From Alkalibacterium thalassium (GTDB lineage Bacteria > Bacillota > Bacilli > Lactobacillales > Carnobacteriaceae_A), in NCBI RefSeq assembly GCF_900101165.1, contig NZ_FNFK01000011.1, forward strand, positions 1 to 57,056: 57,056 nucleotides of DNA, in the 5' to 3' direction. The notes beneath the pieces were generated by a model. That model saw only the letters and a program-made list of their open reading frames with translations, was not told the origin of the DNA and searched no databases. Position numbers and translations under genes: made by a program. This document shows, one piece after another, positions 793 to 55,776 of the stretch (position 1 is its first letter; the number at the start of each line of letters is the position of its first letter).

Positions 793-2109
793 TTATTCAT
801 CATCGATTTCTACTGAATCATCTAGCTGCTCTTCTCCTGATTGACCAGCCTCAGTATCTTCTTTAACTTTCTTGTTCTCTTTTTTATTTTTTAGTTTCGC
901 TATTTGTATATTACGCTTAAGCTGAGGGTCATGTTTGCTCTTTGCACTGACCGCAGCTTCGATTGTTCTGACTTCGTATTCTCCAGCAAGGTCCCCATAG
1001 TATTTATTATACCGTTTCTTGAACTGCTGAAACAAATGAACAACGATGACTTTAAGAATGGCATAAATCGGCACACCGAAAATCAGGCCGAATAGTCCCA
1101 GGAGGTCGCCCATGACCAGCAGGACTATAATAATAGTCAGCGGGTGAACATTTAACTGTCTTCCCATAACGTTCGGCTCAATCAGATTTCCGTCAACGAA
1201 CTGAACAACTGCCCAGACGAGAAGCAGCTGTATAACCATCCACCAGGAATCGATCAATGCTATTACAAGCGCCGGGATAAAGGCCAGCGTCGGACCGATA
1301 TAAGGAATAATAGATGTAAATCCGGCAATTACTGCTAGTACCCCATTAAATTCCAAATTTATTATTGAGAAGCCAATGAACATCATGACACCAATCGATG
1401 TTGCAATGATAAGCTGTCCTTTAACATAAGCCCCCACCTGATCATTAACTTCAGAGGATACTCTAATTAGATCTTCTCTCCATTTTGGTGGGACAATACT
1501 CAGCACTGCGTAAAAGAAACGTTTTTCATCTTTCAGCAGGAAAAACAGAATAATTGGGAAGGTAACGATTGTTACTACTACATTCGTCAAACCAGTCATG
1601 ACCGCCGATAACCCACTGAATCCATCTGATAGATACTGATTTAAGTTGTCTGGTATCGAAGTTACAAAGTCTTCTCCTTCTTCAATAAACGATTCTATCT
1701 CATTGCCAAAAGGAAAATCTTCCAGCCATCCAGTAACTGAAGCAATGATCGACTGGATAAAGTCAGGAAAGTTTTCTACAAAGCTGGTAACCTGATCTCT
1801 AAGCAGGGGATAAAGTGAACCTATCCCTACAACCAATACCCCGATAAGTAGAAGAAATAATATGACTACTCCATATATTCTTTTGACTTTTTTCTTTTCA
1901 AGAAAATCGACGAATGGATTAAATAAGTAATACAATAATAAGGCAATAACAAATGGCATTAAGATGTTGGACACAATAACAAAGAAAGGCGTGAAAATAT
2001 AGTCGACCTGGTTAAATATTATCGCCACGATACCGATCAAAATTAGTGTGACTAACGTAAACAGTAAATTGCTTCCCCCAAGAAAATTGATCCATCTTGT
2101 CTTTTTCAT
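793..2109 (-). CDS. AI-2E family transporter (permease of the PerM/YdiK type)
   Basis: The product is a polytopic membrane protein of about 438 residues with the hydrophobic layout of the AI-2E/PerM exporter family: N-terminal membrane pairs, a soluble middle around residues 120-180, then repeated membrane segments including the family-like stretch PYIGPTLAFIPALVIAL. The C-terminal ~70 residues are highly charged and rich in K, E and D. The transported substrate is not predictable; some members export autoinducer-2 and others act as Na+/H+ antiporters. I place the start at the ATG at 2109 because a TATAAT-like -10 lies just upstream (near 2150). An in-frame ATG at 2190 with a weak AGGA is the alternative. 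The gene sits between the rRNA operon and lysS with its own terminator. Confidence 0.85.
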   Translation of the reverse strand: MKKTRWINFLGGSNLLFTLVTLILIGIVAIIFNQVDYIFTPFFVIVSNILMPFVIALLLYYLFNPFVDFLEKKKVKRIYGVVILFLLLIGVLVVGIGSLYPLLRDQVTSFVENFPDFIQSIIASVTGWLEDFPFGNEIESFIEEGEDFVTSIPDNLNQYLSDGFSGLSAVMTGLTNVVVTIVTFPIILFFLLKDEKRFFYAVLSIVPPKWREDLIRVSSEVNDQVGAYVKGQLIIATSIGVMMFIGFSIINLEFNGVLAVIAGFTSIIPYIGPTLAFIPALVIALIDSWWMVIQLLLVWAVVQFVDGNLIEPNVMGRQLNVHPLTIIIVLLVMGDLLGLFGLIFGVPIYAILKVIVVHLFQQFKKRYNKYYGDLAGEYEVRTIEAAVSAKSKHDPQLKRNIQIAKLKNKKENKKVKEDTEAGQSGEEQLDDSVEIDDE

Positions 2110-16756: not shown

Positions 16757-17311
16757 TTATTCACCGGGAGCTAAGATGATGATGTTTTCGAATCTAACGA
16801 ACTCTTCGACGTCACCTTCATCGCCTACTTCATACAATTCTTCTTCAGATACACCGACTTGGTATTCCTGATCAGAATCTGTAGCTTCAACTGTAAAGCT
16901 GAATGCTCCATCTTCGACTGCAGGTGTTTCTACTACTTCCCCGTCCTGAAGAACGTAGGCATAGACGTCTCCTTCTCCAACAGCTGAACCGTTAACTGTA
17001 GCTTCTCCGTCTTCAGGTGTGAATACATATCCTTCCTGAGACCAAGTTCCACCAACGATTTCCAGCTCGATAGATGCAGTGTAACCTAGATCGCTTCCGA
17101 TTCCGTCAATGATATCGTGAGCACTTTCACCGTTTCCGGCATCCTCATCAGTTTCGTCTTCTGGAGTTTCTTCTACATCTTCAACCTCAGCATCGTCTTC
17201 TACTTCTTCTTCTTCGACGTCTGGTGTCGGGCTTGGATCTCCATCTGTATCACACGCAGCTAGTGCAAGTGTAGATACTGCCAGCAAACCTAATAGTTTT
17301 TTATAACTCAT
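16757..17311 (-). CDS. Acidic lipoprotein of unknown function
   Basis: This secreted lipoprotein of about 184 aa has a basic start, a hydrophobic core and a lipobox LAAC (lipidated Cys about 20). It continues with an extremely acidic linker (about 25-65, nearly all E/D with T, V and P) and a C-terminal beta-rich region of about 115 residues (TASIELEIVGGTWSQEGYVF...). The linker looks like a tether through the cell wall. No enzyme motif is visible. The start could be ATG 17311 (AGGAGG at 11 bases) or ATG 17320 (too close to it). It is monocistronic with its own promoter and terminator. Confidence 0.8.
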   Translation of the reverse strand: MSYKKLLGLLAVSTLALAACDTDGDPSPTPDVEEEEVEDDAEVEDVEETPEDETDEDAGNGESAHDIIDGIGSDLGYTASIELEIVGGTWSQEGYVFTPEDGEATVNGSAVGEGDVYAYVLQDGEVVETPAVEDGAFSFTVEATDSDQEYQVGVSEEELYEVGDEGDVEEFVRFENIIILAPGE

Positions 17312-17397
17312 TTTGTACATTCCCTCCTAATATCTTACATCTCTTTTATATAAGAGATAAATGGGATAGAACTATCTTTATAATTTCGCTCGTCGCT

Positions 17398-33805: not shown

Positions 33806-34663
33806 TTAATCTGTATCGCCAGTTATATTTCTGCGACGGGTCAGTCGTTCATACTGGGAGGCCGAGAATAGTTTCTTTATAGCAGTGGTCAACCCAAAAA
33901 TGAAAATAAATATCAGAGTGATCGATGCTCCTGGCGGTGTGCCGTATTGATACGAAGCAGTGAGACCACTCAGCATTCCGATAACTGCAATGACTATGCC
34001 GATGAGGATAACGCCATTAAAACTCTTGCTTAACCGCATGGAAATTGCGGCTGGGAGAATAATAATCGCCGACACTAGTAAGGCGCCTACAATTGGCATG
34101 ATGACTGCTATCGTCACACCAGTCAGTACGTTGAACAGAATCGACATACGCTTAATCGGAAGGCCAGCTGTAAATGCCGTATCTTCATCGAACGTCAGAA
34201 TATACATCGGTTTTCTGAAAATAATGTATAAGCTCCCGATCGCCAGGGTCAAGCCAAGCAGAAGCCAGATCTGCTGCTGGCTTATCGTAACGATGGAACC
34301 GAACAGGAACTGGTTGATATTCAGTGATGCACCGCCCTCGTTCAGACCTAGAAGAACCAGAGCGACTGCCATCCCTCCGGACATCAACATTGCTACTGAT
34401 ATTTCAGAATATGTCCGGTATATCATTCGAAGATACTCCAGTAAGATGGCTACGCCTATCACGACGATAATATTTGTCCAGGTCGGGTCAGTACCTAACA
34501 GCATACCAAGTGCCACCCCGGCAAGCGATACATGCGAGAGGGTATCCGCCATCAGAGACTGTCTTCTCAAAATCAGAAAAAGCCCCAGAACTGGCGCAAT
34601 CAGTGAGATGAGGAATGATGCTTGGAAGGCTCTTTGCATGAATCCATAGAAAAACATCTCCAA
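33806..34663 (-). CDS. adcB: Zinc ABC transporter permease (AdcB/ZnuB)
   Basis: This is the membrane subunit of the zinc importer, about 285 aa with some eight hydrophobic segments. It has the ABC-3 permease signature region ([21 protein letters not shown] near residue 34; [20 protein letters not shown] near 195). The start is TTG at 34663 with GGAGG seven bases upstream; the next codon but one is ATG. The start lies inside the end of adcC, an overlap of 64 bp in another frame, so translation is likely coupled. Zinc as substrate is inferred from the Zur-boxed adcA beside it. Confidence 0.92.
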
Positions 34664-35316
34664 GGGGAATCCTCCTTCCGTATCAGTTCGATATGTTTAT
34701 TCGCGTATTGACGCAGCTCTTCATGATCATGCGTCACCATCAGTATGCCTTTTCCATGATCCTGACTGTTATGCTTAAGTAGGCGATAAAATTCTTCACG
34801 GGAATGGCTGTCCATACCTGTGGTCGGTTCATCCAGGACAAAGAGATCAGGGTCCGTTGCAAATACTCGGGCGATCGAAATACGCTGCTTCTGCCCCCCG
34901 GACAGTTCACCTATTTTCTTGTGACGCATATCCCACATACCAACGGATTCAAGAGATCGTCTGACATGTTCCTTATCTTCTTTATCCAGTTTTTTGAACC
35001 AGCGTCCTCTAGGATATCTCCCTGACTGAACGAGTTCCAGAACAGTACTTGGAAAGCCTGCGTTGAATGAAGAAACCTGCTGAGGAACATAGCCTACAAC
35101 GAGTTTTTCATTCCACCTATTTGTTCTGGACAGAGTGACGTTTCCTTTCGACGGTTTAAGAAGTCCCAGGATATTCCGTAATAAAGTTGTTTTTGCTGCC
35201 CCGTTTTCACCAGTCAGCATGACAAAATCACCGGAGTTCACCTCAAAAGAGATATTTTCCAGGACGGGTTCATCTTCATAATGGAAAGCAAGGTCATCGA
35301 CTGTAATATATTGCAT
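34600..35316 (-). CDS. adcC: Zinc ABC transporter ATP-binding protein (AdcC/ZnuC)
   Basis: This ATPase (238 aa) has a Walker A of the form GENGAAKTT, with Ala where most ABC proteins have Gly; I believe this variant is common in AdcC. The Q-loop region (GYVPQQ), signature LSGGQKQR, Walker [11 protein letters not shown] and switch His VTHDHEEL are all intact. The last ~20 residues are encoded in the overlap with adcB. It lies about 130 bp after adcA, with a hairpin between them. No Zur-type palindrome was seen directly before adcC, so expression probably depends on readthrough from adcA. Confidence 0.93.
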
Positions 35317-35443: not shown

Positions 35444-36670
35444 TTAGTTAATGGACTGTTTCAGTGCTTCGAGATTTTCTCTCATTGCTTCTACATATCC
35501 AAGACCTTCAGCTTGCAGTTCTTCTGACAAAGTTTCCAGATCATGCAGAACGGCTGTTTCTGTACCAGTCTCATTGGCTACTGTCTGGGCAATCGCCGAA
35601 TTGGCACCCTGCTGATAGTAAATGACCGGCACGTCGTATTCATTCACCAGCTGGTTTATTTCAGCTATTCTTGAAGGACTCGGCTCCACTTCTGTAGAAA
35701 GCCCTCCGATTGCTATCTGATCCAGATCATACCTGGCTGCAAGATAGCCGAATGCCTGATGCTGAACAACAAAGGTTCTATTTTCCGCACCCTCGAAAGC
35801 TTCCAGATAATCTTCATGAAGTGCAGACAGTTCATTGATGAACTGGTCTGCGTTTTCCTGATAGCTCTCTGCATTCACCGGATCTGCTTCAATCAGTGCT
35901 TCCATGATAAGCAGGACCTGATCTTGTGCAAGGACAGGATCAAGCCAGATATGAGGATCTTCTTCTTTATGATCATCAATGTGTACATGAGCCACTTCTG
36001 ATTGTGCGAGTTCATTTCCATCACCATCAGTTGCTACAGCCTGTACCAGAATATCTTCTCTTTCAATCTGGTATTCGAACCGGTCAGATGTCAGGTTATC
36101 GACCTGTTCCCATTGGCCTTCTTTTTCCATGACATACCATTGCCAGTCTTCTGCCTGTTCATATTGAGCCATTAAAGTGACGGTATCACCACTATGATAG
36201 TGGCCTGCCAGACCAATGATCTGAACATCCTCAGGAAGATTTGCCACTGGCTCAGCTGAAAAGTCTGTTTCATTTCCACTTGACGCCGGCGAGTCATAAT
36301 GCCTTTCCGTTCCCAGAGCGTCAGCTGTTCGGACAACTTCCAGTTCTTCATTCTCAATTGAATTCAGCAGGCTGGGTACCCAGAACTCCATTTCCTCACT
36401 TGTATAGATGAACAGATCTGCATTATTGATTCCTGCAATATCCCGAGCACTTGGTTCATAACTGTGTGGATCTGCTCCTCCACCTACCATGAGAGAAATA
36501 TCTGCATGCTCACCAGCCACCTGCTGAGTAAATTCATACACAGGATAAAAAGAAGTGACAATTGATAAGTTATCATCTGATGTTTGTTCAGAATTTTCTG
36601 GCGTACATGCACTTAAACCAAGAATTGCGAGAATAAGAGGCAGCAGCCCATACATTTTTTTATTAATCAT
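35444..36670 (-). CDS. adcA: Zinc-binding lipoprotein AdcA/ZnuA with an inserted extra domain
   Basis: This is the substrate-binding protein of the zinc importer, 408 aa from ATG 36670 (AAGGAG six bases upstream; the ATG at 36703 lies inside the Zur box). It has a signal peptide with lipobox LSAC (Cys22). The usual cluster A-I zinc ligands are visible: H69 (GADPHSYEP), H240 (DPHIWLDP), H304 (VVQHQAFG) and an acidic ligand in STEVEPSPSR (about 327-329). At residues about 148-234, where the family has a His-rich loop, there is instead a beta-rich domain with GHYHSGD, WQWY and AQSEVAHVH. The same domain forms the C-terminal half of the neighbouring lipoprotein (36799-37335). Confidence 0.93.
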   Translation of the reverse strand: MINKKMYGLLPLILAILGLSACTPENSEQTSDDNLSIVTSFYPVYEFTQQVAGEHADISLMVGGGADPHSYEPSARDIAGINNADLFIYTSEEMEFWVPSLLNSIENEELEVVRTADALGTERHYDSPASSGNETDFSAEPVANLPEDVQIIGLAGHYHSGDTVTLMAQYEQAEDWQWYVMEKEGQWEQVDNLTSDRFEYQIEREDILVQAVATDGDGNELAQSEVAHVHIDDHKEEDPHIWLDPVLAQDQVLLIMEALIEADPVNAESYQENADQFINELSALHEDYLEAFEGAENRTFVVQHQAFGYLAARYDLDQIAIGGLSTEVEPSPSRIAEINQLVNEYDVPVIYYQQGANSAIAQTVANETGTETAVLHDLETLSEELQAEGLGYVEAMRENLEALKQSIN

Positions 36671-36690
36671 CGTTAACTCCTTCAGATTGT

Positions 36691-36710
36691 AAATCGTAAT
36701 CATTACGGTG
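36691..36710. promoter_or_regulatory. Zur-type operator of adcA
   Basis: AAATCGTAATCATTACGGTG is a near-perfect palindrome matching the Bacillus Zur box (TCGTAATNATTACGA). It lies between the adcA -10 and its start codon, so a zinc-loaded repressor would block transcription. Confidence 0.85.
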
Positions 36711-36711
36711 A

Positions 36712-36743
36712 ATAAAGTATCATGAGAATAGATACTCTGTCAA
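36712..36743 (-). promoter_or_regulatory. Promoter of adcA
   Basis: The minus strand has TTGACA, then 17-18 bp, then a -10 of the form ATACTT/TACTTT, directly upstream of the Zur-type palindrome. Confidence 0.7.
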
Positions 36744-36760
36744 ATTATAATTTCAGAAGA

Positions 36761-36791
36761 GAAGGCAGCCGACTATATCAGCTGCCTACAT
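36761..36791 (-). terminator. Terminator after the zinc lipoprotein gene
   Basis: A GGCAGC...GCTGCC stem followed by TTCTCTTCTG lies just downstream of the lipoprotein stop. The T-run is interrupted. Confidence 0.6.
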
Positions 36792-36798
36792 TTTCTAT

Positions 36799-37335
36799 TT
36801 AATGATTGTCCACTTCAAGCTCAACAGCTTCAGATTGTGCATATGGTGCGTGTGCATCATCGTAAAGAACCGCCCTAACGTTTACTGTTGTTTCAGGTGC
36901 TTCCATAATCAAGTCTTGAGTATGCTGGCCGGAAATGATTTCCCATTCATCAGCATCATCTTCCCGGCTGTACCAGTGCCAGTCATCATAATCTGTCTCT
37001 TCTGACATGACAGCTGTCAGTTCAACTAGTTCTCCAGTGTGGTAATGATCCGCCACTCCTTCGATCGTGATCAGCTCTGCGACATCTGCATCAGCTTCAT
37101 CATGATCATAATGTTCATCTTCGGCCTCTTCATCAAGATCAGCAGTGTCGTCCGCTTCTGTATCTTCATCGCTGTCTTCTTCTAGTGCAGCTTCGTCACC
37201 TGTTTCTTCACTTCCTTCTTCTTCAGCCATATCTGTCGTGTTATCTTCTATACCTTCATCTTCTGCTGTATCACAGGCAGCTAAGTATAAACTCATTAAA
37301 GCAACTCCAGAAAGTTTGATCCATTTATTCAACAC
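36799..37335 (-). CDS. Zur-controlled lipoprotein with acidic tether and AdcA-like His/Trp domain
   Basis: This 178-aa lipoprotein has lipobox LAAC (Cys21). A tether of about 60 residues (25-85) is almost entirely D and E and ends in EHYDHDEAD. The C-terminal domain (about 88-178) contains ADHYHTGE, WHWYSR, SGQH and YAQSEAVELEV. It aligns along its length with the domain inserted in AdcA (HYHSGD, WQWY, AQSEV). The start is GTG at 37335 with AGGAGG seven bases upstream. It has its own promoter and Zur box just upstream of adcA. A role in capturing zinc and passing it to AdcA is inferred; no published function is known to me. Confidence 0.85.
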   Translation of the reverse strand: MLNKWIKLSGVALMSLYLAACDTAEDEGIEDNTTDMAEEEGSEETGDEAALEEDSDEDTEADDTADLDEEAEDEHYDHDEADADVAELITIEGVADHYHTGELVELTAVMSEETDYDDWHWYSREDDADEWEIISGQHTQDLIMEAPETTVNVRAVLYDDAHAPYAQSEAVELEVDNH

Positions 37336-37356
37336 AATTATTCCTCCTATATAAGT

Positions 37357-37378
37357 AAATCGTAATTGTTACGTTTTA
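37357..37378. promoter_or_regulatory. Zur-type operator of the zinc lipoprotein gene
   Basis: AAATCGTAATTGTTACGTTT closely matches the Zur box palindrome and overlaps the likely transcription start, just before the ribosome-binding site. Confidence 0.85.
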
Positions 37379-37379
37379 C

Positions 37380-37408
37380 ATTTAACCATGTTCCGCAGAT
37401 GATGTCAA
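37380..37408 (-). promoter_or_regulatory. Promoter of the zinc lipoprotein gene
   Basis: The minus strand has TTGACA (37408-37403), 17 bp, then TTAAAT (37385-37380). The Zur palindrome begins two bases downstream of the -10. Confidence 0.8.
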
Positions 37409-51889: not shown

Positions 51890-52672
51890 TTATATTAAGT
51901 GATAGGTCAGGCAGGCTGGTTTTTTTGTTGATGGATCCTGAACGATTTGAGCATCGATATCGAAGACGTCTCTCAGCACCCCATTGGTCATAACTTCTGA
52001 CGGTTTACCCGCTTTGATGATCTTTCCGTCTCTTAACGAGATGAGATAGTCTGAAAAGCGTGATGCATGATTCAGGTCATGCAGAACCATAACGATCGTC
52101 TTGTTCTGATCCCGGTTCAGTTTCTCCAGCACCTGAAGCACATCCAGCTGATGCGCCAGATCCAGATAGGTCGTTGGTTCATCGAGCAGCAGGATATCCG
52201 TATCCTGAGCAAGGGCCATTGCGATCCAGACGCGCTGGCGCTGACCACCTGACAAGGCATGCACATAACGGTCCGCGTATTCCAGCAGATTTGTCTCTTT
52301 CAGTGCCCAGTGGATCATTTCCCAGTCTTTTCCTGAGAGCTGACCAAATCCTTTCTGATAAGGCGACCGGCCATAGGATACCAGATCCTTGACTGTCATT
52401 TCTTCAGGCGTATGCGGTGACTGAGCCAGTATGGCTATTTTTTTGGCGATACTTTTAGTGGACTGCTGATGGATAGCTTTTCCGTCGAGGAGTACAGACC
52501 CGCTTGATGGCTTAAGCAGTCGAGCAATTGTCTTCAGAATCGTCGACTTCCCGCAACCGTTCGGTCCAATGATGCATGTGATTTTTGAATCCGGAATCGT
52601 CAGCTCGAGTCCGTCGACAATCAGCTGTCGTCCGTACCCGATAGACAAGTCATCTGTAGATATCCGTGACAC
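51890..52672 (-). CDS. Iron-siderophore ABC transporter ATP-binding protein (FecE/FhuC type)
   Basis: This ATPase of about 260 aa has Walker A GPNGCGKST, the Q-loop region ILAQSPHTPE, signature LSGGQRQRVWIAMAL, Walker B ILLLDEPTTYLDL (typical of the FhuC/FecE group) and switch His VLHDLNHA. The start is taken as GTG 52672 (AGGAGG at 10 bases), with GTG 52681 as an alternative. It is the last gene of a Fur-boxed operon and would power the two permeases upstream. Confidence 0.95.
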   Translation of the reverse strand: MSRISTDDLSIGYGRQLIVDGLELTIPDSKITCIIGPNGCGKSTILKTIARLLKPSSGSVLLDGKAIHQQSTKSIAKKIAILAQSPHTPEEMTVKDLVSYGRSPYQKGFGQLSGKDWEMIHWALKETNLLEYADRYVHALSGGQRQRVWIAMALAQDTDILLLDEPTTYLDLAHQLDVLQVLEKLNRDQNKTIVMVLHDLNHASRFSDYLISLRDGKIIKAGKPSEVMTNGVLRDVFDIDAQIVQDPSTKKPACLTYHLI

Positions 52673-52708
52673 GCTACCCACCCCTCCTTTACTATTAGTT
52701 AATATATT

Positions 52709-53662
52709 TTACTGCTGCAGGCTGCTGTCAATATGCTCCAGCACCTGCTCGTTAGCTATTGGTCCATAATACAACCAGGCTGACTGCGAGTCAAATGTGT
52801 ATACATTGTCATTTTCGACAGCAGGTATATTCTGCCACAACCGGTCTTCCATGAGTTCGCTTTCAGCATCTGAGATAAGGAAGAGATGATCAACATCCAT
52901 TTCAGCCAGCTCCTCTAGTGAAACAGCAGCCCAGTCTGCATCATCAGACAGCTGATCTACGACATCAGGAATATCAAACCCCGCATCCCCGTATAGGACA
53001 GAGCCACTCGAACGTTCGGGATGAACAACGAACAGACTCGTATCGATCATCCAGATCGCAGCGGCTGACTCACCTTCTGCAGTTTCCTGAACTAGAGACG
53101 CTGTTTCCTCAGCCCTGGCATCGTAAGACTCGATAACTGAAGCTGCTTCGTCTTCTCTGTCCAGAACCGTACCGATTTCTCTCATTGTTTCTCTCCAGCT
53201 TGTTGGACTGGCATTCATAACGTAAGTCGGCGCAATTAGATTGTATTGGTCCACCATATCCTGTTCGATCTGATCACGGACAAGGATCAGGTCCGGCTCA
53301 ACCGACATGACGGATTCGTATGGTAAATCATAAGGAATCGTCTGCACATCCGCCAGATCGTCTTGAAGATAAGACTGAACGCCCTCTCCATCATTGATCG
53401 ACCACTGCGCAACAGGTGTGATGTCAAGTGCTGTAAGGTAGTCTTCAAGATAAGAAGCAAGCACTGCTTCCGGATCTTCCGGGATTTCTACTTCGTTCCC
53501 CAGTCCATCTGTCAGAACACGCGGGCCTTCACTTTCCTGTACCTCTTCTGTTGCTTCATCTGTTCCATCAGCCGGATCCAGTTCAGTATCTTCCTCGTTG
53601 TTCCCGCAGGCCGCCAGAAGTAAAGTCAGTGATAATGTACCTAAAGCTAGTTTTTTCATCAT
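52709..53662 (-). CDS. Iron-siderophore substrate-binding lipoprotein
   Basis: This 317-aa lipoprotein (lipobox LAAC, Cys about 19) has an acidic linker (NNEEDTELDPADGTDEATEE) before a class III (BtuF/FepB-like) binding fold: RVLTDGLGNEVEIPEDPEAV, DLILVRDQIEQD, and VDHLFLISDAES near the C terminus. It delivers a ferric siderophore to the permease pair. The ligand type (hydroxamate, catecholate or citrate) is not readable from sequence. ATG has GGAGG upstream. It lies 10 bp after the permease gene. Confidence 0.93.
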   Translation of the reverse strand: MMKKLALGTLSLTLLLAACGNNEEDTELDPADGTDEATEEVQESEGPRVLTDGLGNEVEIPEDPEAVLASYLEDYLTALDITPVAQWSINDGEGVQSYLQDDLADVQTIPYDLPYESVMSVEPDLILVRDQIEQDMVDQYNLIAPTYVMNASPTSWRETMREIGTVLDREDEAASVIESYDARAEETASLVQETAEGESAAAIWMIDTSLFVVHPERSSGSVLYGDAGFDIPDVVDQLSDDADWAAVSLEELAEMDVDHLFLISDAESELMEDRLWQNIPAVENDNVYTFDSQSAWLYYGPIANEQVLEHIDSSLQQ

Positions 53663-53672
53663 ATTTCCTCCA

Positions 53673-54716
53673 TTAGTCTTTGATAGTTATTAATAGATAA
53701 ATAAAGTAAGGGGCACCGATTACAGAGACAATCAAGCCGACAGGTATTTCAGATGGTGCAAGTATTGTACGTGCCAATGTATCGGACAGGACGATTAGAA
53801 TGGCTCCGGTCACAGCTGATACAGGAATCAGCCGCTGAAACTTTCCTCCGACCAGCCTTCTGGCCAGATGAGGAGCGATCAGGCCGACAAAGGCGATGCC
53901 CCCGGCAGCTGATACACTTGCTGCGGAAAGTGCAACGCCTATGGTCAGCAGCTTGATCCGTTCTTTTTCAATCGCTGTGCCTAGTCCTACAGCCATCTCC
54001 TCACCGAGCTGCATGACAGACAGCACTCTGGCTTTATACAAAGATAAAGGGATGAATATCAGGATCCACGGAAGCAGTCTCAGGACAGCAGCCCAGGAAG
54101 CATTCCAAATCGAGCCCGAGAGCCAGATCAGTGCCCTATTGAAGTCACTTTCACTCATTCTTAGCTGAACAAGTAGCAGCGCCGCAGAAAAGCCGGCATT
54201 TACTCCGATACCGACCAGAATCAGTCGGATCGGGGTAACCCCTTCTTTCCAGGCAAGCACATAAATAAGTACGGCAGCTGAGATGCCTCCGATAAATGCT
54301 GCAAAAGGCAGGCCAGCATTTAACCATACGGGTGGCTGATCCTGATTCAAAGTCAGAAGATAAAGGTATAGAACAGCAAAAAATCCTGATCCTGAATGGA
54401 TACCAATGATCCCAGGGTCTGCCAGGCCATTCTGAGTGACACCTTGAAATATAGCACCAGCCGTAGCCATTCCAGTTCCCACCAGTACGGCCAGTACAAT
54501 GCGTGGGAGACGGAACTGATACAGGAGAAGCTCATGAGAAGCTGTACCAGCGCCCGTAACTGTCAACCAGATTTCAGTTGGTGTCAAGGCCATATAGCCT
54601 GACGCCAGACTGACCATGACGAGAACGCCTAAAAGACAGATAAGAAAAAGTAAGAGCCATGTACTTCGCTTGAATGCTTTATCTTTATAATGAGAGGATT
54701 GCTTTGATCGTTCCAT
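53673..54716 (-). CDS. Iron-siderophore ABC transporter permease (FecCD family), second
   Basis: This FecCD-type permease of 347 aa has about nine to ten membrane segments. Typical motifs are LRLPRIVLAVLVGTGMATAG-like (QFRLPRIVLAVLVGTG), GIHSGSGFFAVLY, GGIAFVGLIAPHLARRLVG (the coupling-helix region) and APSEIPVGLIVSVIGAPYFI. The start lies one base after the stop of the first permease gene (TGAAATG), so the two are translationally coupled and likely form a heterodimer. Confidence 0.95.
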   Translation of the reverse strand: MERSKQSSHYKDKAFKRSTWLLLFLICLLGVLVMVSLASGYMALTPTEIWLTVTGAGTASHELLLYQFRLPRIVLAVLVGTGMATAGAIFQGVTQNGLADPGIIGIHSGSGFFAVLYLYLLTLNQDQPPVWLNAGLPFAAFIGGISAAVLIYVLAWKEGVTPIRLILVGIGVNAGFSAALLLVQLRMSESDFNRALIWLSGSIWNASWAAVLRLLPWILIFIPLSLYKARVLSVMQLGEEMAVGLGTAIEKERIKLLTIGVALSAASVSAAGGIAFVGLIAPHLARRLVGGKFQRLIPVSAVTGAILIVLSDTLARTILAPSEIPVGLIVSVIGAPYFIYLLITIKD

Positions 54717-54717
54717 T

Positions 54718-55776
54718 TCAGCCTCTCCCTTTTTTTCTAGCCAGTAAAAGGAAAAATGGCACCCCGATCAGTCCAGTCAAGGCCCCGACAGGCGTCTCGT
54801 AAGGCGGATTGATCGTTCGAGCTGCAATATCTGCAAGAACAAGCAGACCAGCGCCGAAGACAGCAGAGCCTGGGATGACCCATCTGTAGTTCATTCCCAT
54901 GACTTTTTTCGCAACATGAGGAATGACCAGTCCGACAAATCCGACCGTACCGGCGATCGAGACGGCTGCACCAGTTAAAATCAGGACGACAAGAACTGAA
55001 ACGAACTTGATCCAGCCGATTCTGATTCCAAGTCCCTTAGCCATCTCTTCTCCAAGCCCCATGATTGTCAGTGAACGAGACAGCGCGAAGGCAGCGATCA
55101 GTCCGGCAAATGCCAATATGCCAATTACTCTGACGCTTTCCATTCGCACTCCCGCGACTCCACCTGCAAACCAGAAGCTGATGTCTCTGGCGACATTGAA
55201 ATGGATGGCAATAATCGTCGACAGGGACTGGAGAAGCGCGCTTACCGCAGCTCCAGCTAGAGCCAGCTTAACGGGAGTCAGTCCACGTTTACTGAAGGAG
55301 CCGACCAGAAAAACCATTCCGGTCCCTAATCCTGCTCCAGCAAAAGACCAGAGGATCAGCTGCCAATAATTGGACTGGGGATAAAAAGCAAAAGCAACAG
55401 CAATCATGAAAGCCGATCCTGATGTCACCCCCATAATGGATGGTGAAGCCAGCGGATTAAGCGTGAGTGCCTGCATGATGACACCCGACACAGCAAGAAA
55501 GGCGCCAACCAGAGCGGCCGCAAGAATACGCGGGATCCTCAGGTCTCTGATGATGACATGACTCGTACTGCTTGAGTCGAAAGCGGTAAAAGATTCTATA
55601 ATGTCTCGCCACCCGATATCAGAGACTCCTATGGAAATAGAAACAATCATAATCAGAACCAGCGCTGCTATACTGGATATTAAAATAAGAGCGGCCGGGT
55701 GAGGGGCACTCAGTCGCTTCATCAGCCGCTTCTGTGTCTCTTTTTTTGTAAGCTGGTCCTTTCTGATCTGTTCCAT
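54718..55776 (-). CDS. Iron-siderophore ABC transporter permease (FecCD family), first
   Basis: This is a 352-aa paralogue of the next gene, with the same fold: IRDLRIPRILAAALVGAFLA, NPLASPSIMGVTSGSAFMIA, GTVGFVGLVIPHVAKKVMG and NPPYETPVGALTGLIGVPFF. An N-terminal basic extension of about 25 residues precedes the first membrane segment. It follows the reductase gene by 40 bp and ends one base before the second permease. Confidence 0.95.
   Translation of the reverse strand: MEQIRKDQLTKKETQKRLMKRLSAPHPAALILISSIAALVLIMIVSISIGVSDIGWRDIIESFTAFDSSSTSHVIIRDLRIPRILAAALVGAFLAVSGVIMQALTLNPLASPSIMGVTSGSAFMIAVAFAFYPQSNYWQLILWSFAGAGLGTGMVFLVGSFSKRGLTPVKLALAGAAVSALLQSLSTIIAIHFNVARDISFWFAGGVAGVRMESVRVIGILAFAGLIAAFALSRSLTIMGLGEEMAKGLGIRIGWIKFVSVLVVLILTGAAVSIAGTVGFVGLVIPHVAKKVMGMNYRWVIPGSAVFGAGLLVLADIAARTINPPYETPVGALTGLIGVPFFLLLARKKGRG

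Follow-up and report, generated by a model that had tools for sequence, protein, structure and literature searches.

The 57,056-nucleotide stretch of Alkalibacterium thalassium DNA studied here (the window; it belongs to a genome of 2.36 Mb) carries a putative zinc-uptake locus on its minus strand, transcribed in the order lipoprotein of 178 amino acids (aa), adcA, ATP-binding cassette (ABC) ATPase, ABC permease. The adcA gene (35444–36670) encodes a zinc-binding lipoprotein with an almost full-length ZnuA core (PF01297, profile positions 1–262 of 263, E 9.8e-77); its nearest solved structures by sequence are YcdH (2o1e) and AdcA (7jj8 and 7jj9), and its AlphaFold2 model has a predicted local distance difference test (pLDDT) score of 84.5. 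The metal ABC transporter ATPase (34600–35316) and permease (33806–34663) are named AdcC-like and AdcB-like by sequence and place. The lipoprotein gene (36799–37335) starts with GTG, and its product consists of a signal part with lipobox Cys21, an acidic tether (37072–37272) and a C-terminal domain of 90 aa (36802–37071), whose last His is exactly the C-terminus of the protein. The tether, previously described as D/E-rich and of about 60 residues, indeed has 54% D/E over 67 aa. A Pfam scan of the entire lipoprotein yields no match. A domain of the same kind lies inside AdcA (35969–36226), directly before the zinc-ligand motif DPHIWLDP. We refer to this common domain of approximately 90 residues as HYH.

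An earlier note on the window claimed by eye that the two domains are homologous and have matching motifs, and this claim holds. BLASTP of lipoprotein residues 80–178 against AdcA residues 151–245 of the long open reading frame (ORF; residues 140–234 if counted from the start at 36670) yields E 3e-9 with 30% identity and four gaps in 99 columns, and the profile–profile comparison suggested in that note, made by hhalign with seven lipoprotein and seven AdcA copies, yields a probability of 99.35% and E 6.5e-21; chance resemblance is ruled out by these two values. The motifs align as HYHTG and HYHSG, WHWY and WQWY, AQSEA and AQSEV in the lipoprotein and AdcA, respectively. The lipoprotein domain of A. 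pelagium is 92% identical to the A. thalassium copy. Scanning of 21 HYH copies with Pfam and NCBIfam gives no curated match, just scattered hits to at most four of the 21 copies per family (best E 0.0038 in Pfam and 0.0091 in NCBIfam), and the PDB sequence search with the HYH profile gives scattered Ig domains only; the match to 9d7z_J goes from E 0.0026 with 21 copies in the profile to 0.35 with 109. The open-access literature, subscription papers being outside the scope, yielded no account of the HYH domain and no paper for its motif letters or for TIGR03769.

Genomes of 84,980 species were scanned with the motif HYH[TS]G[DE]x[VI][ET][LI]; the best 80 of 97 confirmed stretches constitute 75 loci, several of them from one genome. 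Locus patterns were seen within about 5 kb on each side, a partner elsewhere in the genome being outside this view. An HYH–ZinT fusion together with a two-copy AdcA is present in 37 of the 75 loci, ZinT alone in 11, ZinT with a one-copy AdcA in ten, a two-copy AdcA alone in five, a one-copy AdcA alone in three, an actinobacterial wall protein in three, and an interrupted ZinT fusion, in two pieces, in one. The remaining five loci (four from Alkalibacterium, one from Desemzia) have a one-copy AdcA and a stand-alone lipoprotein. Hence, the lipoprotein–AdcA pair pictured earlier exists, but as a minor arrangement of a wider family. The sequences listed, 187 in number, were reduced to 178 distinct copies by removing cut or shifted duplicates (two of the 178 being pieces of one interrupted zinT). 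These are found in ZnuA/AdcA-type ORFs (107), ZinT ORFs (58), and elsewhere (13, that is, eight stand-alone lipoproteins, four copies in three actinobacterial wall proteins, and one ZinT fragment). Profile searches, with the own or center genome included as in the motif tallies, detected the domain in 14 of the 27 family genomes, three of the 398 class genomes, 14 of 249 genomes from the order of Shouchella clausii, and two of 150 from a Streptomyces family; the distribution of HYH is accordingly patchy, and the domain is rare overall. Among the carriers in the motif scan, several have names of salt- or alkali-loving genera, a possible trend. The survey of co-occurrence that the earlier note had suggested shows all eight stand-alone lipoprotein genes adjoining a domain-bearing adcA.

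The most conserved positions of HYH have been identified in an alignment of 109 copies (A2; 108 of the 187 sequences were kept by selection, with at least 76 aa, no X and at most 72% ungapped identity). G5, Y10, H11, W33, and H90 are present in all 109 copies and H9 in 108, compared to 95 for W31 and 102 for W43. Motif-scan loci are no proof of motif conservation, since the scan itself required the motif. Copies from protein or profile searches (66 full of 69, the others being L237 and the two pieces of L008) have HYH in 63 cases, HFH in two, YYH in one, and the last His in 66 of 66. Restricted to genomes outside the motif scan (seven of 94 loci were dropped as reached by it too, leaving 55 full copies of 58), the set has HYH in 52, HFH in two and YYH in one, so that the His conservation claimed earlier is borne out by HxH in 54 of the 55 copies and by the last His in all 55. 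Even copies with only 26–31% identity to the A. thalassium one have HYH[TS]GD and end with D[DN]H, and H90 is the exact C-terminus in seven of seven Alkalibacterium lipoproteins.

AlphaFold2 run on the 109 copies predicts eight strands with high confidence (pLDDT 95.4, predicted template modeling score 0.83). Among the 50 Foldseek matches listed, most are Fn3 and Ig domains, with template modeling scores by query of 0.53–0.75, the best E being 2e-3 and none at or below 1e-3. Together with the A2 alignment, this predicts an Fn3/Ig-like sandwich. Such sandwiches have the A–B turn at the same pole as the end of strand G, so that His9, His11, and His90 would come together there in the predicted fold; isolated strand-or-bridge residues at 10 and 87 of the model (132–133 and 205–206 in AdcA) are no more than a hint that strand G ends next to the HYH segment. 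HYH is, in sum, a real, unnamed, zinc-associated Fn3/Ig-like domain.

Since Gly, Tyr, and Trp are as conserved as His, the HYH block could be structural. Fn3/Ig-like domains are common in surface proteins, and G, Y, and one W of the motif are equally invariant, as would suit a mainly structural or spacer role, that is, an Ig-like extension with the conserved His residues as a part of the fold. We consider such a role very unlikely: a spacer need not keep to zinc proteins, yet 165 of the 178 copies reside in ZnuA-type or ZinT ORFs and eight more stand beside such an adcA, and the three His residues are conserved over two phyla.

In AdcA, the last His of HYH is six residues ahead of the His in DPHIWLDP (H208 and H214 in A3 numbering). 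H43, H214, H278, and E303 of the same numbering are invariant in 25 chosen sequences and, as candidate metal ligands, have been equated with S. pneumoniae H63, H140, H204, and E279 solely from their place in the motifs, with the least certainty for the Glu. Out of 12 Alkalibacterium genomes, seven have both the lipoprotein and the AdcA domain, and five have neither; in these five domain-less congeners an acidic loop occupies the same site of AdcA, with 3, 4, 5, 6, and 9 His and 12–15 D/E in the 30 residues before DPH[IV]WLDP. A His-rich loop also precedes the ligand His140 of S. pneumoniae AdcA and, with the ZinT-like domain, aids zinc recruitment under restriction (PMC7858048). The suggestion that the domain replaces the His-rich loop thus stands for the genus; it is not universal, since other members of the family (G016, G018, and the genus g9) have His-rich stretches together with the domain. 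As a separate observation, the lipoprotein tether of one congener (G006, L018) is made up of HDHDHDDED-type repeats and has 18 His among its 82 residues, a type of segment otherwise belonging to AdcA loops.

Homotypic docking would be expected to place the same domain on several partners in a pathway, as is seen for HYH; in addition, its Trp and Tyr are conserved, and ZinT as well as the AdcA core already contain their own zinc sites. HYH could then be a docking module, by which ZinT, the lipoprotein, and the AdcA copies bind each other or the permease, bringing the carriers together without carrying the transported zinc. This seems fairly unlikely to us: the domain is found at the very AdcA site of the congeners' His-containing acidic loop, a position indicative of metal handling; conservation is stricter for H9, H11, and H90 than for W31 and W43; and HYH is the only folded domain of the Alkalibacterium lipoproteins.

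Both HYH genes are preceded by Zur-like palindromes. The search with AAATCGTAATNATTACGATTT, which we take to be the Zur consensus of B. subtilis, at up to three mismatches identifies two sites in the window, each before an HYH gene, with 0.00 expected (100 shuffles): 37357–37377 before the lipoprotein gene, with two mismatches, and 36691–36711 before adcA, with three mismatches over 21 bases and one over the 15-base core. The core at up to three mismatches has seven matches in the window compared to 2.72 expected, the two HYH-gene sites being the best ones (one and two mismatches). The adcA start at 36670 is favored over the ATG at 36703, as the latter is covered by the palindrome. A promoter-like site adjoins each palindrome, both on the minus strand. 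The one of adcA (TTGACA-16-GATACT, 36716–36743), found by motif search, is weak evidence, since 12 such sites are found in the region and 7.8 in shuffles; the one of the lipoprotein gene (TTGACA-17-TTAAAT, 37380–37408) has been read by eye, and the promoter search missed it because its rule demands that the second hexamer have A as its second base. A terminator-like hairpin between the two genes (36763–36787, minus strand, 11 pairs with a weak T tail) is weak evidence as well, with two such hairpins found in the region and 2.6 expected in shuffles. Of the own promoters overlapped by Zur palindromes that had been proposed for both genes, the palindromes are retained, and the promoters are represented by hexamers that are weak or read by eye.

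A similar trend is observed in other genomes. In the region from 250 bases before to 40 bases after the start (the start codon nearest to the lipobox, chosen by rule), a close 15-base core (at most two mismatches; significance assessed per ORF, with at most 2% of 50 shuffles as good) is present in 84 of 128 domain ORFs, in 63 of the 75 loci. By class, it is found in 48 of 59 ZinT ORFs, 32 of 60 ZnuA-type ORFs, and four of nine others; some adcA genes without a close core stand after a zinT that has one. The A. thalassium genome has three Fur-family genes, one of which is presumably Zur-like, judging by motif features. These candidate sites suggest that the HYH genes may be regulated by Zur.

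The promoter-like site (by eye) and Zur-like palindrome of its own, and the acidic tether, His-rich in one congener, could also be expected of a lipoprotein that is a zinc store or buffer, not a delivery partner of AdcA. Such a function is unlikely in our opinion, given that the gene lies beside a domain-carrying adcA in eight of eight genomes and that, should Zur act as a repressor at the palindrome, starvation and not excess is expected to induce the gene.

The third HYH copy of the A. thalassium genome, on a different contig, constitutes the N-terminal part of a ZinT lipoprotein (PF09223, E 1.1e-75, residues 93–272 of the piece after a stop), with the Zur-like palindrome AAATCGTAATGATTACGATTT in the upstream region of the gene. 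ZinT is present in only three of the 12 genomes of the genus, and all three are HYH fusions. In this assembly, an in-frame TAG is found in the signal peptide of the A. thalassium gene (L002, approximately 1896–1920, minus strand), and a single TAG lies within the HYH domain of the fusion from the congener G003 (L008); L103 looks alike, and L009 is open. The in-frame TAGs of both zinT genes were not read through. Small genes near zinT (L002, 623–892 and approximately 2080–2412) are presumably paralogues of ribosomal proteins S14 and L32, and two similar Zur-like palindromes are located upstream of the L32-like gene. The B. subtilis Zur regulon lists znuABC, ZinT, and ribosomal paralogues (PMC6103462), and the zinT neighborhood with its paralogues and palindromes would suit a Zur regulon.

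To place the lipoprotein among the other copies, profiles built from named loci without Alkalibacterium were used. The AdcA copy 1 profile gives the best score for seven of seven Alkalibacterium lipoprotein domains, and origin from the ZinT fusion is less likely, the margin of copy 1 over ZinT being just 2.4–11.6 bits. In the domains resident in Alkalibacterium AdcA, copy 2 exceeds copy 1 in seven of seven, by 3.0–12.8 bits, with the one-copy-AdcA profile slightly above copy 2 in two of the seven. As the lipoproteins score as copy 1 and the resident domains as copy 2, the simplest reading of these scores is that in Alkalibacterium a two-copy AdcA may have been split, with copy 1 moved onto the tether. 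The domain tree (139 rows), which has too few columns for firm placement of groups and is poorly resolved, agrees with this reading as far as it goes: all seven lipoproteins of Alkalibacterium group with AdcA copies in a set with support 98 that contains no ZinT. The single Desemzia lipoprotein (L080) has the best score with the ZinT profile and looks ZinT-derived; hence stand-alone forms may have arisen twice.

In Actinobacteria, HYH occurs in an anchored-repeat ABC system. In Streptomyces (L098 and L100), it is found inside a wall protein matching TIGR03773, choice_anch_M, and TIGR03769 over the cut-offs and bearing an LAVTG sortase signal, which exceeds its cut-off in L100 and falls slightly short of it in L098; the next gene encodes a TIGR03772 binding protein (E 1.3e-225 and 1.1e-232). 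The Actinophytocola protein (L107) has choice_anch_M and HYH, TIGR03773 being under the cut-off. In Corynebacterium diphtheriae, Zur regulates a related cluster (PMC6711530, Table 1). The earlier note named TIGR03769 repeats as a parallel, and a common origin with them is not supported: none of 21 HYH copies matches the TIGR03769 model at E up to 5, and hhalign with the choice_anch_M/TIGR03769 region of four sequences yields a probability of 0.22%, which rules out that HYH is TIGR03769. Still, the actinobacterial link is closer than analogy, since HYH itself occurs inside the Streptomyces TIGR03773 wall proteins.

Homology, a confidently predicted fold, the insertion site, residue conservation, and gene context have been established by computation, and zinc capture with local delivery to AdcA appears to be the most likely function of HYH. 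The domain would be an accessory zinc-recruitment module in the zinc-starvation response, with His9-x-His11 (after strand A) and the last residue, His90 (after strand G), jointly holding one Zn2+ at the same pole. As the AdcA domain is inserted before the DPHxWLDP ligand, where congeners have the acidic His-containing loop, it would collect zinc by the transport site. HYH on ZinT or on the tethered lipoprotein would be a mobile zinc carrier, reaching out from the membrane and passing zinc to AdcA, which would then feed AdcCB; the Alkalibacterium lipoprotein would be the counterpart of the first AdcA copy of other genera, freed onto a tether. Zinc binding by HYH and hand-over from the lipoprotein to AdcA are what we infer here, the relay step being plausible by parallel with the transfer from PhtD to AdcAII. 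Taken as a whole, the explanation of HYH by capture and hand-over to AdcA seems to us fairly probable.

Besides the narrow margins and the poor resolution of the tree, several observations weigh against this explanation. Co-occurrence of the lipoprotein and adcA may be plain co-inheritance, as the genes are neighbors. No close Zur-like core is found in 44 of the 128 domain ORFs, including the three actinobacterial wall genes and Geomicrobium-like zinT genes (L086–L088 and L093), and no ZnuA-like gene is present in the 10-kb Actinophytocola locus (L107). Moreover, the motif itself varies, with YYH in the L022 lipoprotein and NYH in AdcA copy 1 of L069, and a ZinT ORF of 341 aa (L237) has lost the HYHTG segment and retained W33 and the last His, which makes it a natural test case for the need of HxH. 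The HYH profiles were built from HYH-bearing copies and hence favor such copies.

A broader version of the capture and hand-over explanation may also be envisaged, in which HYH is a portable zinc-transfer cassette. Its copies in AdcA, ZinT, lipoproteins, and Streptomyces sortase-anchored wall proteins would dock pole to pole around a shared zinc, so that any carrier could pass it to any other along the surface, and in Alkalibacterium the domain would have moved from cis to trans. This version is tentative, and we hold it to be rather doubtful.

The proposed system can be compared with several known ones. In the actinobacterial TIGR03769/TIGR03772/TIGR03773, choice_anch_M system, a wall protein and a binding protein likewise have a common domain, but the common repeat is TIGR03769, for which no relation to HYH is detected, and anchoring is of the sortase type, not lipid. 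AztD is a beta-propeller protein and, unlike the carriers of HYH, is not known to have a domain in common with its partner AztC. The likeness is that in AztD–AztC, too, the ABC binding protein receives zinc from an extracytoplasmic protein separate from it (PMC6689063). Two-domain AdcA has accessory zinc-recruiting parts on the same ZnuA core, with HYH at the site of the His-rich loop (PMC7858048); in the HYH system, by contrast, the loop is replaced or accompanied by a folded domain, and this domain is also borne by ZinT, there a protein of its own. In S. pneumoniae, zinc transfer from PhtD to AdcAII has been shown by nuclear magnetic resonance, and there, too, a His-motif protein on the surface is partnered by a zinc-binding protein (PMC3842936). 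The Pht sites are HxxHxH with an acidic residue in short three-strand units (PMC3842936), whereas HYH is a predicted Fn3/Ig-like sandwich and is also found inside the receiving protein, AdcA. A Pht-type HxxHxH triad in HYH is ruled out, as the position three before H9 is His in none of the 109 copies, and the Pfam scan of 21 HYH copies gives no Pht-type match.

Two other regions of the window may be mentioned. At 16757–17320 (minus strand), a further small lipoprotein is encoded that has a D/E-rich tether as well as a C-terminal part, and 51890–55776 (minus strand) is, by ORF content (two permeases, a binding protein, and an ATPase), a putative siderophore-type ABC uptake operon.

For zinc passage across the Gram-positive wall to the importer, the known models are Pht–AdcAII and ZinT–AdcA. 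HYH, a compact unit that is predicted with confidence and whose three His residues are nearly invariant, is testable for zinc binding and transfer. It connects the AdcA/ZinT systems of Bacillota with the actinobacterial anchored-repeat system, and could let unannotated surface proteins be placed in zinc uptake.

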